Source of the DNA: Candidatus Zhuqueibacterota bacterium
GTDB taxonomy: Bacteria; Zhuqueibacterota; Zhuqueibacteria; Oceanimicrobiales; Oceanimicrobiaceae
Direction of reading: 5' to 3'
DNA length: 33,038 bases
NCBI GenBank assembly: GCA_029262005.1
Contig: JAJDAG010000055.1
Span: 1-33,038 of the forward strand
Numbering within the stretch: position 1 is the stretch's first letter; each line of letters opens with the position of its first letter. Of the stretch, positions 28,787 to 33,038 are shown in pieces. The translations under genes were made by a program, and so were the position numbers. Under the pieces are notes generated by a model, which was not told the DNA's origin, made no database searches, and saw only the letters and a list, made by a program, of their open reading frames with translations.

Positions 28787-29398
28787 ACAAACACGACATT
28801 TCGCCTGCAAGCGATTGCCATCTATGGTACTCAAGCGCCGCAAGTTCGCTGTTGTTGAGAACGAGCAATGAGAGAATTGAACTTTGAGCATAAACCGGGG
28901 TAACGGATTGACTGTGAATTTTGGATTTCCAGGTTAGCTGTTTAACGTGAGTTCGATGTAACGGGATACCTCTGTGTGAACATAAAAAGGGACTTGTCAT
29001 TTCGAACCACGACGTCTTGTTGTCGTGTGTGAGAAATCTGTGCGGCAAGATGAGAATCGACGCCAAACATTTGTTTATGCGGTAATAAAATTGCCACTCC
29101 GGATTTCTCCGCCGAAAGAACCGGCGTTCGAAATGACGCCTTCTTTTGGATTTTGGGAACGGTGCCGACAGAATCCTGAGGGCTTGTACAGTCACGCGTT
29201 ATGTCGAACGCACGTCTTTTTAGGTTTTTCTCTGCGAACTCAGCGTTAAATTTTTCAATGTAGCATCCGGATTCGGTTATTTACGGCTGTCAATAGTTTT
29301 TTTTTCGTCATAATGCACTTTTTTTGCAAGGAAAGCGGCTATTGAAGCTGTCTATTAGTAGTAAGCAACTATTCCATACAAATTACAGGAGGTAATAC
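28787..29398. other. Intergenic region before the 250-residue gene
   Basis: The region contains the palindromic element at 28996-29137. An outer imperfect inverted repeat flanks it (28945-28962 with 29198-29215, three mismatches in 18). A strong ribosome site AGGAGGT (29387-29393) serves the next gene. Open frames here on either strand run across repeat sequence and have no coding character. Confidence 0.55.
28996..29137. repeat. MITE-like palindromic element with GTCATTTCGAAC ends
   Basis: A perfect 12-bp terminal inverted repeat (GTCATTTCGAAC 28996-29007, GTTCGAAATGAC 29126-29137) encloses an inner perfect 8-bp repeat (GAGAAATC 29031-29038, GATTTCTC 29102-29109). Each arm also has its own small hairpin: CACGAC with GTCGTG on the left, CGCCG with CGGCG on the right. 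This GTCATTTCGA...GAGAAATC pattern is a known style of abundant dispersed repeat in Bacteroidetes-related genomes. There is no transposase and no clear target duplication. Confidence 0.75.
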
Positions 29399-30151
29399 AT
29401 GTCAAATCAAGATGACTACCAGGCCAAGCTCGCGACGATTACGGCAATCGTGGCCGAGGACACCAAATCGCCGGCCATCCCGATAGATGTTTATTTGCAG
29501 GAAGCGGAGAATCTCTATCACTGGAGCCAGGATGATCAGGCACAACTCACCGGCGCCGGGCTGGATTGGGCTCTGGTGCAAGATATCCCCGTTCGTGCCG
29601 GCGCCTTGCGCGAAGCACAATCCCTTTGGTTTAAAGAACGCTTTACGCGGGAAGAGGCGGAGAAACAGTGGAACGAGCAATCCCCCGAAGGCTATGATTT
29701 AAGAACCCGGCTCTTGCATAGTTTCCGCTATGCCTATCGTGATGCAGAGGATTTACTAAGCCGTGTCTCGGCGATTGCCGATGGCAACACCCATGCCGAC
29801 ATGATTCAAGACCTGAATGATATTGCCGTTCTGGGCAAAGAAAATATCGTCCCCCTGCAAGCCATCAATTTCGATGTTGCGCTATTGGATGAAGCCGCCA
29901 CCACCGCAGATGTATTATCCGACCTGCTGGCACAGGCTACCACGGATCGTGAAGAAAACAGCAGCGCCAGGGTTATCCGCGATCAGGCTTATAGCCACCT
30001 CAAAGAAGCCGTAGATGCCGTGCGCGCTTGTGGCCAGTATGTCTTCTGGCGCAATGACGAACGTTTGAAAGGCTATGGCAGCCGCTACTTCAGAAGAGCG
30101 CGTGCTGCCGCAAAAAATACTGCTGCCAACAACCCAAATGGCAGTGAATAG
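29399..30151 (+). CDS. Unrecognised 250-residue helical protein beside a tandem-repeat array
   Basis: The start is firm: AGGAGGT lies 5 nt before the ATG. The protein is soluble, without signal peptide or membrane segment, almost entirely helical, and acidic in the first 190 residues. Noticeable blocks are LRTRLLHSFRYAYRDAEDLL (101-120), LNDIAVLGKEN (139-149), ALLDEAATTADVLSDLLAQA (161-180) and YSHLKEAVDAVRACGQYVFW (198-217). A basic RRARAAAK tail follows. The helices suggest a bundle of the four-helix type. I recognise no named domain. It has no gene partner on its strand nearby. A perfect hairpin follows 21 nt after the stop, then a 12-copy tandem array sharing the CCGCAGG of that hairpin. 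A DNA- or RNA-binding role is possible but unproven. Confidence 0.85.
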   Translation: MSNQDDYQAKLATITAIVAEDTKSPAIPIDVYLQEAENLYHWSQDDQAQLTGAGLDWALVQDIPVRAGALREAQSLWFKERFTREEAEKQWNEQSPEGYDLRTRLLHSFRYAYRDAEDLLSRVSAIADGNTHADMIQDLNDIAVLGKENIVPLQAINFDVALLDEAATTADVLSDLLAQATTDREENSSARVIRDQAYSHLKEAVDAVRACGQYVFWRNDERLKGYGSRYFRRARAAAKNTAANNPNGSE

Positions 30152-30171
30152 ACCTGTTTTAGCACCCCCGT

Positions 30172-30201
30172 TCCGCAGGGCCTTTAAAATGGCCCTGCGG
30201 A
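30172..30201 (+). terminator. Perfect GC-rich hairpin after the 250-residue gene
   Basis: An 11-bp perfect stem (TCCGCAGGGCC with GGCCCTGCGGA) encloses an 8-nt AT loop, 21 nt past the stop codon. It lacks a T-run, so it may work as a transcript-stabilising or factor-dependent end. Its CCGCAGG arm is shared with the tandem array that begins 27 nt later. Confidence 0.65.
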
Positions 30202-30227
30202 CAAGTTAAAATCCCCATACAATAAAG

Positions 30228-30478
30228 CACTACCCCCGCAGGAAGGGTCACTACCCCCGCAGGAAGGGTCACTAGCCCGCAGGAAGGGTCACTACCCCCG
30301 CAGGAAGGGTCATTACCCCGCAGGAAGGGTCAAATACTCCGCAGGAAGGGTCACTACCCCCGCAGGAAGGGTCAATTACTCCGCAGGAAGAGTCAAATAC
30401 CCCGCAGGAAGGGTTCATTGCCCCGCAGGAAGGGGTCATTACCCCGCAGGGAAGGTCAAATGCCCCGCAGGAATGGAT
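30228..30478. repeat. Tandem array of twelve ~21-bp units (CCGCAGGAAGGGTCA core)
   Basis: Twelve units of 20, 21 or 22 bp (251 bp in all) share the core CCGCAGGAAGGGTCA with variable 4-6-bp joins (CTAC, TTAC, AATAC, ATTAC). Copies 1, 2, 4 and 7 are identical. Copies 8-12 diverge step by step, and a thirteenth remnant follows. Unit lengths break the reading frame, and no start codon opens the array, so it is not coding. The ~21-bp period equals two helical turns, which places each core on one face of the DNA. Joins are too short for CRISPR spacers. It is not a known iteron or terminator repeat that I recognise. Confidence 0.9.
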
Positions 30479-31115
30479 AAATTACCGCACATGGAGAAGC
30501 GCCGGGGTTTGATTAACGACATTTATATATCCCTGCTGACGACAATTAAAATTCCTTACTAATCAACGGAGTTTTTTGTACAATCCAGGAAGGGCAAAGA
30601 CATAAAGGAGGGCAATCCCGGGGAGTTATTCAGATGAGTCGAATAGGATACTGCTTTGGGAGCATATATAGAAAGCGGTCTGATTTAATACAAAAAATCA
30701 ACTCTTTTTTCCGATTCTGTTGACATTGTGTCGTTTTTTCATTTTTTTTAGGGTGATGCGGTGGATGCATGATGCTGAAAATGTTCCCCGGAGAGATACC
30801 CACATTCGAAAAGTATGATTTTATAAATCAGGTTTTTTCCGAAATATCTGAAAATAGAATGGATCATGATATGTTTAGAATACTGTGTTAGATTTTAAAA
30901 CCGACAGGGGTGCGATTTTTGGAATTTAGAGATTCAAACGCACTGAGCATTTTCGTCGGTAAGTTTTAGAAAAGGTGCAGGTGAAAATCTTGTTATATCG
31001 ACAGAGACCGTAAGTGTTCGTAGAAACAACAAGGTGCAAATGTGCAGTTTCCTGTCTACAAAATCTAATCGGAGTCTATTCATAAACATATCCCAGCACT
31101 GACAAGGGCCATTAT
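30479..31115. other. AT-rich region between the repeat array and hsdM
   Basis: No gene of usual size is seen in these 637 nt. A single degenerate repeat copy (CAGGAAGGGCAAA) lies at 30586-30598. A 29-codon frame with a GGAG-type site starts at 30634 (stop at 30721) but has no recognisable sequence. A TTGACA at 30720 lacks a -10. Hand count for 30841-30900 gives 14 G+C of 60. Confidence 0.5.
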
Positions 31116-33038
31116 ATGACAACCAGCTTTTCCCAAACCGCCGCTTACATCTGGTCACTTGCCGATCTGCTGCGTGGTGACTTCAAACAATCCCAGTACG
31201 GCCGCATCATCCTGCCGTTTACCATTTTGCGCCGGCTCGAATGTGTGCTGCAGGCCCGCAAATCCAAAGTCCTCGCAGAGGTCGGGAAGCTCAGGACGAT
31301 GAAAAAACTGGAGGAGGAAGCTCGCGAGAAATTTCTTCTCAAAGCAGCGGGGCAGTCCTTCTACAACACCTCGCCCATGGACCTGTCCAGGCTGGGCAGC
31401 GCCGACATCAAGAGCAACCTGATCACATATGTGGACAGCTTCTCGAAGGACGCTCGCGAGATCTTCGAGCATTTCCGGTTCGATGAATTTATCGGCCAGC
31501 TTGATGAGGCCAATCTCCTTTACAAAGTTGTGCAAAAGGTCGCCAATACGGATCTAAATCCCAAAGCCATTAGCAATCACGACATGGGGCTGGTCTTTGA
31601 GGAATTGATCCGGCGCTTCGCGGAAAGCTCCAACGAAACCGCTGGTGAGCATTTCACGCCACGCGACATTGTGCGCCTGACGACTTCCCTGGTTTTCATG
31701 GAGGACAACGACGCACTGACTGTACCCGGCATCGTCCGCACCATCTACGACCCGACGGCGGGAACCGGCGGCTTTCTCTCCAGCGGCATGGAGTACGTGT
31801 ACGAAATAAATCCCAATGCTGTTATGCGCGCCTTTGGCCAGGAACTCAATCCTGAGAGCTATGCCATCTGCAAGGGCGACATGCTCATCAAGGCGCAGGA
31901 CGTCAGCCGCATTAAGCTTGGCAACACCCTCAGCGATGACCAGCTCTACGCAGATAAATTCGACTACATGCTCTCCAATCCACCTTTTGGCGTGGACTGG
32001 AAGAAGGTTGAAGGCGACATCAAAGGCGAGCACAAGCTCAAGGGCTTCGATGGCCGCTTTGGTCCGGGGCTGCCGCGGGTGAGCGATGGCTCGTTGCTTT
32101 TCCTGATGCACCTGCTCAGCAAGATGCGCGACTACGATGCCAACGACAAGGACAAGAACGGCGGCCGCATCGGCATTATCCTCAACGGCTCGCCCCTGTT
32201 CACGGGTGGCGCTGGCAGCGGTGAGAGCGAAATCCGTCGCCACATACTTGAGAGCGACCTGCTGGAGGCCATCGTCGCCCTGCCGACGGATATGTTCTAC
32301 AACACCGGCATCGCGACCTACGTCTGGGTGCTGTCCAACAAAAAGGACGCCGAGCGCAAGGGCAAGGTGCAGCTCATCAACGGCGTGCATCTCTACCAGA
32401 AGATGCGCAAGAGCCTGGGCTCCAAGAGGCAAAAACTCGGCGAAGGTGACATCGCACTGATCACCCGCACCTTCGGGAGGTTCGAGGCGATTGAGCCCTA
32501 CAGCCTCGACACGCAAGCCCGCGAGAATGGCGGCAACGGCAAGCGCGGTCGCCCGGCATCTACGAAGAAGAAGGCCGAGAAGAAGACCTTCGGCAGCAAG
32601 ATCTTCGAGAGCCATGAGTTCGGGTACCGGCGCATCACCGTGGAGCGCCCGCTACGGCTCTCCGCGCAGTTCACCGAGGACCGGCTTGCGGAGCTGCGCT
32701 TCGCGAGCGGCCCGCTGAATGCCGTGATGCGGAAGGTCTACGAGCTGCACGGCCAGGAATGGACGGACGAGATCTACGGCGAGCTCGCGGAGGTCGAAGC
32801 CGAGGTGCGCGCCCTCGTCAAGGCCGACTTCAAGGACCTGAAGGAGAAGCAGGTGAAGGACCTGCTGGCCCCGAAAACATGGAAGGCGCAGAAGGAGCTG
32901 CTCGCCAAGGCGGTGCAGCTTCAGGCCGTGGTCGGGACCGGGCAGTGCGACGACTTCAACGAATTCGAGGGGACGCTCAAGGAGGCGCTCAAGAAGACCG
33001 GAATCAAGCTGGAGACGAAGGAGAGGAAGCAGCTTCTC
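31116..33038 (+). CDS. hsdM: Type I restriction-modification DNA methyltransferase subunit HsdM (runs off the window)
   Basis: The frame is open from the ATG at 31116 (AAGGG about 7 nt upstream) to the last base, 641 codons without a stop, so the gene is partial at its 3' end. The N-terminal helical domain begins [20 protein letters not shown] and has [19 protein letters not shown]. The AdoMet domain shows [10 protein letters not shown] (177-186), motif [10 protein letters not shown] (212-220) and catalytic NPPFG (288-292). These identify an N6-adenine methyltransferase subunit that works with HsdS and, for cleavage, HsdR; both are expected beyond the window. It is already longer than classical HsdM (about 500-530), so it belongs to the long C-terminal-extension type. 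GC climbs from about half near the start to over two thirds near the end. Confidence 0.95.

Follow-up and report, generated by a model that had tools for sequence, protein, structure and literature searches.

A helical-protein gene and its two-turn repeat array as a probable self-contained protein–DNA module in several bacterial phyla

Gene, inverted repeat and array at the locus

In this study, we analysed a window of 33,038 nucleotides, the whole stretch being contig C156 of a 5.8-Mb genome (G000); among the relatives found, the nearest are from candidate division KSB1. Near its 3' end, a gene for a helical protein is followed by an inverted repeat, a phased array of twelve units, two repeats that recur elsewhere in the genome and hsdM:

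29387..29393, + strand: Shine-Dalgarno sequence AGGAGGT of the helical-protein gene (direct reading of the sequence)
29399..30151, + strand: gene for an all-helical 250-aa protein of an unnamed family (ORF, 120 distinct relatives, AF2)
30083..30130, + strand: codons of the predicted C-terminal helix, residues 229–244, the putative recognition helix (AF2, partial correlation, residue 235 concordance)
30089–30091 and 30101–30103, + strand: codons of residues 231 and 235
30172..30201, no strand assigned: inverted repeat with one forward and one reversed core (CCGCAGG...CCTGCGG), the gene-proximal dyad (repeat search, dyads of relatives)
30228..30473, + strand: array of 12 units, period 20–21 bp, core CCGCAGGAAGGGTCA, putative sites of the protein (TRF, unit list)
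30507..30617, no strand assigned: degraded end of a dispersed repeat, insertion-sequence-like, outside the module (about 88% identical copies on C144, C19, C145 and C146)
30654..30890, no strand assigned: 237-bp repeat outside the module (93% identical to C151:21188-21424)
31116..33038, + strand, running off the window: hsdM, type I DNA methyltransferase, probably an incidental neighbour (Pfam HsdM_N and N6_Mtase)

The initial annotation had described a 250-residue helical protein with a strong ribosome site, and both could be verified from the open reading frame, the AGGAGGT motif and an AF2 model computed with 45 homologues, which is all-helical with 11 helices at a pLDDT of 92.3. One helix of the model spans 56 residues (57–112), the last one residues 229–244, and the net charge amounts to +2.7 for the tail and −11.2 for the body. 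The protein gave no match in Pfam, PHROGs or PADLOC and none in a sequence search of the PDB, and a fold search against PDB and BFVD returned nothing with E below 0.1. An acidic helix motif, DMIQDLND (residues 134–141, window 29798–29821), is almost invariant in the family, W77, W91 and R194 being invariant too, and the motif could constitute a partner surface, an oligomer surface or an active site.

Tandem Repeats Finder reports the interval 30228–30473 both at period 21 (11.8 copies, score 297) and at period 63 (score 365). Twelve CGCAGG cores start at 30237, 30258, 30278, 30299, 30319, 30340, 30361, 30382, 30403, 30424, 30445 and 30466 and are spaced 20–21 bp, so that the twelve units proposed earlier at about 21 bp are confirmed by both TRF and the unit list. 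Since 20- and 21-bp steps are mixed, the period is not that of a coding sequence. The periodicity score 3' of the gene is 0.82–0.83, while shuffles reach at most 0.46 and only 0.3% of 648 control segments taken elsewhere in the same loci attain 0.5; the periodicity of the window array is not due to chance.

The arms of the inverted repeat (30172–30185 and 30188–30201) measure 14 bp with one mismatch, and only their 10-bp core, CCGCAGGGCC/GGCCCTGCGG, is perfect. The hairpin is therefore real, but its earlier description as perfect was slightly overstated. Comparison with relatives shows that the inverted repeat nearest the gene belongs to the array itself, as a dyad or an inverted arm, and the window hairpin corresponds to such a dyad. 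This interpretation replaces the idea of growth from a hairpin arm.

Downstream, hsdM was correctly recognised; it starts about 640 bp past the array, and the gap holds two genome repeats. The first of them (30507–30617, TGATTAACGACATTTAT...) was considered as the end of the module and rejected, the conserved 3' flank being an independent dispersed repeat. Its copies lie mostly at contig ends, with the copy on C11 abutting a second array of the same core, and it is probably an insertion sequence whose inside was left unassembled. The 237-bp repeat 5' of hsdM includes a promoter motif resembling TTGACA, and a short ORF begins within it. Because no neighbour gene recurs across 57 loci and the neighbours are mixed, hsdM is probably incidental and the relation to R-M raised at the outset is not borne out; R-M-like neighbours number six or so among 92, a count without baseline.

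Gene–array linkage, phasing and core confinement

A first genome scan yielded 57 relatives, nearly all flanked by an array of 20–22 bp period and distributed over KSB1, Bacteroidota, Aminicenantes, Gammaproteobacteria, Deltaproteobacteria, Neomarinimicrobiota and others, and the enlarged set comprises 120 distinct proteins, 116 of them with enough flanking sequence. Calling an array at a period of 20–22 or 41–43 bp, we observed a periodic array at the gene in 102 of these 116 relatives (98 downstream, 4 upstream only), leaving 14 without an array at the threshold used, while at eight control periods between 25 and 39 bp none of the 116 passed. The best single period was 20–22 bp or its double in all passing loci but one. 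In three Aminicenantes loci (L039, L065 and L126), an array with a period of 22 or 42–44 bp precedes the gene. Several copies per genome are common, with up to 22 matches (about 20 copies).

These counts agree with the earlier proposal that protein and array are one unit, and similar arrays were indeed present when the homologues were checked, although with differing core sequences. It had also been argued that array-less homologues together with protein-less arrays would break the link; each was seen, but as a minority, and several of the gene-less arrays in the window's genome resemble decayed modules. Judged from these comparisons, the original observation is right and wider than the window locus.

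Most arrays of the window family, across phyla, have a core resembling [G/A]CAGGA. Many Bacteroidota arrays are two-armed, with 3–5 reversed units, a tight dyad (e.g. CCTGTT-A-AACAGG) and 4–8 forward units. Same-strand spacing is 20 or 21 bp in 273 of 298 steps, which, along with the residue–base co-variation described below, fits the suggestion of a protein lining up along one DNA face. The mean of the locus means is 20.64 bp and not exactly 21, and a long array would therefore slowly rotate around the helix.

In the window's genome, exact copies of the core are restricted to this array and the second one on C11. Sites with one mismatch fall in these two or in two degraded arrays, and sites with two mismatches outside arrays are about as numerous as for a reversed-pattern control. 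The core is thus confined to arrays, a pattern that does not suggest a regulator with scattered targets. Paralogues within a single genome can differ in core, as in G063 with GCAGG at L047 and ACAGG at L075.

Co-variation between the C-terminal tail and the core

For 40 loci with CAGG-type cores, we compared protein and core distances by sliding partial correlation. The correlation is highest at residues 226–240 (0.32), with 0 of 2000 permutations matching the observed value from residue 226 onward, and smaller peaks appear at residues 61–85 and 136–150. An unbiased scan of column pairs ranks residue 235 and core position 6 among the leading pairs (z 8.5) and also couples residue 231 to core positions 7 and 8.

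Residue 235 predicts the base at core position 6 in 39 of the 40 loci, a concordance displayed by the same data from which the pair was chosen. With Asn or Ser at 235, position 6 is A in 12 of 12 loci; of the 28 loci with Arg, His, Lys, Tyr or a gap there, 27 lack an A majority and the remaining one has an evenly split array. The sense of the code is consequently Asn/Ser235 with A and Arg/His/Lys235 with G, and asparagine–adenine as well as arginine-, histidine- or lysine–guanine are familiar major-groove contacts. Each trait, residue and base, changes about 9 times by parsimony on a tree built without the protein tail, and of about 17,000 accepted simulations of the traits on this tree none reached 39/40, the best attaining 33. 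CCCGGG-type cores accompany His231 in KSB1 and also, separately, at one Bacteroidota locus. Arrays of sister Draconibacterium loci can still be aligned position by position, yet most of the aligned units disagree in the base at position 6, which is not what amplification of one unit would yield. Among the sister Draconibacterium proteins, L034 has His235 and a GCAGG array, L041 Asn235 and an ACAGG array.

A pre-stated test on a later set of 24 relatives was largely uninformative because most carried other cores; the single clean informative case in it, L290, has Arg together with G, the latter in 6 of 9 units. Other cores in this set also followed the tail, for example GGTAACC in L299 and L300. 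Part of the correlation could come from recombination, since the codons of the tail border on the array and the two may be inherited together. Two observations nevertheless speak against such linkage as the source of the whole signal: co-switches are separate and deep, in a gammaproteobacterium and in several clades of Bacteroidota whose tails otherwise differ, and the smaller peaks lie at residues 61–85 and 136–150. The co-variation indicates that the basic C-terminal tail may read the array repeats base by base.

Proposed module, alternatives and related systems

Taking linkage, phasing and residue–base co-variation together, of the three roles suggested initially, a binding platform, a decoy or an RNA-based system, the platform is therefore favoured. 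We consider it likely that gene and array form one self-contained protein–DNA module in which the protein binds its own array. In the model that we propose from sequence and predicted structure, an acidic helical bundle would carry a basic C-terminal helix, and this helix would read a short core (CGCAGG here) in the major groove of each ~21-bp unit. With one unit per two helical turns, neighbouring molecules or dimers would be placed on one DNA face, probably touching each other, and would build a multi-protein complex limited to the array that belongs to the module. As to function, we lean weakly towards a platform that acts in cis only, like a centromere or as a nucleoid anchor, with regulation of neighbours or a selfish element about as possible.

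The module could instead be a selfish or mobile element that is moved or protected by its protein through repeats at one of its ends, in the way that TnsB or MuA bind multi-site transposon ends, and this we regard as unlikely. Such an origin would account for the several copies per genome with accompanying fragments and array remnants, for the at least four copies with common long flanks in one KSB1 genome, for a different module standing behind the same 260-bp leader at one Draconibacterium locus, and for the integron-type integrases or remnants beside several KSB1 arrays. However, the protein contains no transposase or recombinase domain and has no recurrent partner gene, so that, unlike in transposons of the Tn7/Mu type, a catalytic transposase is found neither in the protein nor as a recurrent neighbour. 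Moreover, some Bacteroidota copies occupy the same genomic position in different species, and plasmids (72,556 records), phages and IMG/VR yielded no relatives.

Integron-type integrase genes or fragments (TIGR02249) adjoin many ~21-bp arrays of KSB1 in varied orientation, at G003:C31:1-900 (L020), C26 (L026), C51, C15, C22 and C49 (L211), further at G003 C10 (L209) and C12 and at G000:C92 (L329) and C28 (L322). An integrase query found none in the flanks of the remaining loci.

Local transcription control, with the array serving as a multi-site operator for its own gene or a neighbour, appears similarly doubtful. It would suit the PQLLE, g152 and g211 families, where the array lies upstream in 17 of 21 distinct loci (9/11, 5/7 and 3/3, respectively), and one KSB1 genome, where an array precedes an integrase promoter and leader at several copies. 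In the window family and in a family of 118-aa proteins, however, the array lies downstream and often past a terminator, the neighbours are unrelated, and twelve or more phased sites would be many for an operator.

An RNA system, in which transcribed units act as protein-binding repeats, as a sponge or as TIGR/CRISPR-like guides, is improbable. The array does adjoin a single gene, small stem-loops around GGA are possible in some units and folding z-scores are slightly negative, but this bias is alike on both strands (mean −1.4 and −1.3). Of 117 loci, 53 have an intrinsic terminator behind the gene, compared with 16 when the sequence is shuffled. Gene and array are thus often divided by a terminator, and many arrays lie outside the mRNA. 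The array may also stand before or after the gene, in both orientations or as two inverted arms, the units are free of unrelated spacers, Rfam gives only sub-threshold matches for the array, and the residue code suits base reading in DNA. Terminators, strand-equal folding and the Rfam result likewise disfavour a decoy. Finally, an ordinary minisatellite beside an unrelated gene would explain the window array alone, bacterial minisatellites being real, yet such coincidence is practically negligible given that the architecture recurs in over a hundred relatives from several phyla with different unit sequences and that the cores track the protein, and it is refuted by the linkage and code tests.

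Gene and array, taken as a protein–DNA module, share single traits with several known systems, of which ParR–parC and iteron replicons come closest in how they work. Iteron replicons have direct repeats near two-helical-turn spacing beside the gene of the binding protein. The window family differs from them in having no Rep domain in Pfam and no match among the plasmid records, its module-sized units being scattered in chromosomes. In ParR–parC, a small protein binds tandem direct repeats beside its own gene, parC can be split into two blocks and the oligomer is superhelical (PMC5016525). A tandem array is present in the window family and co-varies with the protein, its putative binding partner. 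ParR, however, is a ribbon-helix-helix protein, while the all-helical AF2 model represents an unrelated fold without a PDB match at E below 0.1; ParR has the actin-like motor ParM as partner, while no motor gene lies near the window-family genes and no neighbour gene recurs in 57 loci; and parC stands upstream of its operon, while the window-family array is usually downstream and the unit chromosomal.

TIGR-Tas likewise combines a single protein gene with a repeat array upstream or downstream of it, but there the array contains variable spacers from which 36-nt guide RNAs derive, and the Tas protein carries a Nop domain (PMC12045711), whereas the units in the window are near-identical without foreign spacers and the protein has no Nop-like structure match. 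TAACTGA heptamers are dispersed short tandem repeats of marine bacteria including some Bacteroidetes (MacGregor 2015, PMC4679880). They have fixed 7-bp units, mostly just upstream of start codons in the genome studied, and, unlike the present arrays, no linked protein gene (PMC4679880).

A weak NCBIfam match leads to PQLLE (NF052641), a family name that implies no function. Its model is matched weakly by 34 of 45 window-family members (best E 1.9e-7). All of these matches fall short of the cut-off of 80 bits, the window protein itself scoring 16.9 bits. PQLLE proteins of the same genomes have ~21-bp arrays as well, but upstream and with a different core. The term PQLLE is absent from the open-licence literature searched, and nothing like this gene–array pair was found there, in line with the earlier statement that no described system of this layout was known, although a description outside it is possible. 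We are thus apparently dealing with a widespread and undescribed two-part genetic module. Should binding be confirmed, this would mean a new fold of sequence-specific DNA-binding protein with its target within the same kilobase, in several phyla. The over one hundred natural protein–site pairs would then form a data set for the protein–DNA recognition code and could be used to build mutually non-interfering DNA platforms, and the role of self-contained chromosomal complexes without a linked partner gene would be raised.

Such arrays are not limited to the window family, since four further protein families, at most distantly related, carry them upstream or downstream. In the 118-aa family, 24 of 31 distinct loci have arrays; its fold search was empty but carries no weight, the AF2 model being poor (7 sequences, pLDDT 64). 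Weak sequence similarity links the window family to PQLLE and the g152 group, and the comparisons made with the other families revealed none. At the Draconibacterium locus mentioned above, what stands behind the 260-bp leader depends on the species: either a gene of the window type plus its CAGG array, or a gene for a helical 118-aa protein whose array has a different core, e.g. TGCCCCTTGGGG. We find it reasonably likely that all of this represents a large undescribed class of stand-alone chromosomal modules, comprising at least five helical families, at most distantly related, with their own two-turn arrays, which swap at loci and, in the window family, have a C-terminal residue–base code that drifted into distinct specificities within genomes.

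The leader (L034:4744-5003; L362, L363, L365–L368) contains two inverted repeats, and whole modules are swapped behind it. Repeats upstream of it were considered as attC sites and rejected, being dispersed intergenic repeats. A sixth candidate family is represented by a single sighting in a gammaproteobacterium (L215:4436-5229, G065:C8), where a 158-aa gene, itself preceded by an integron-type integrase, is followed by an array of 21-bp period.
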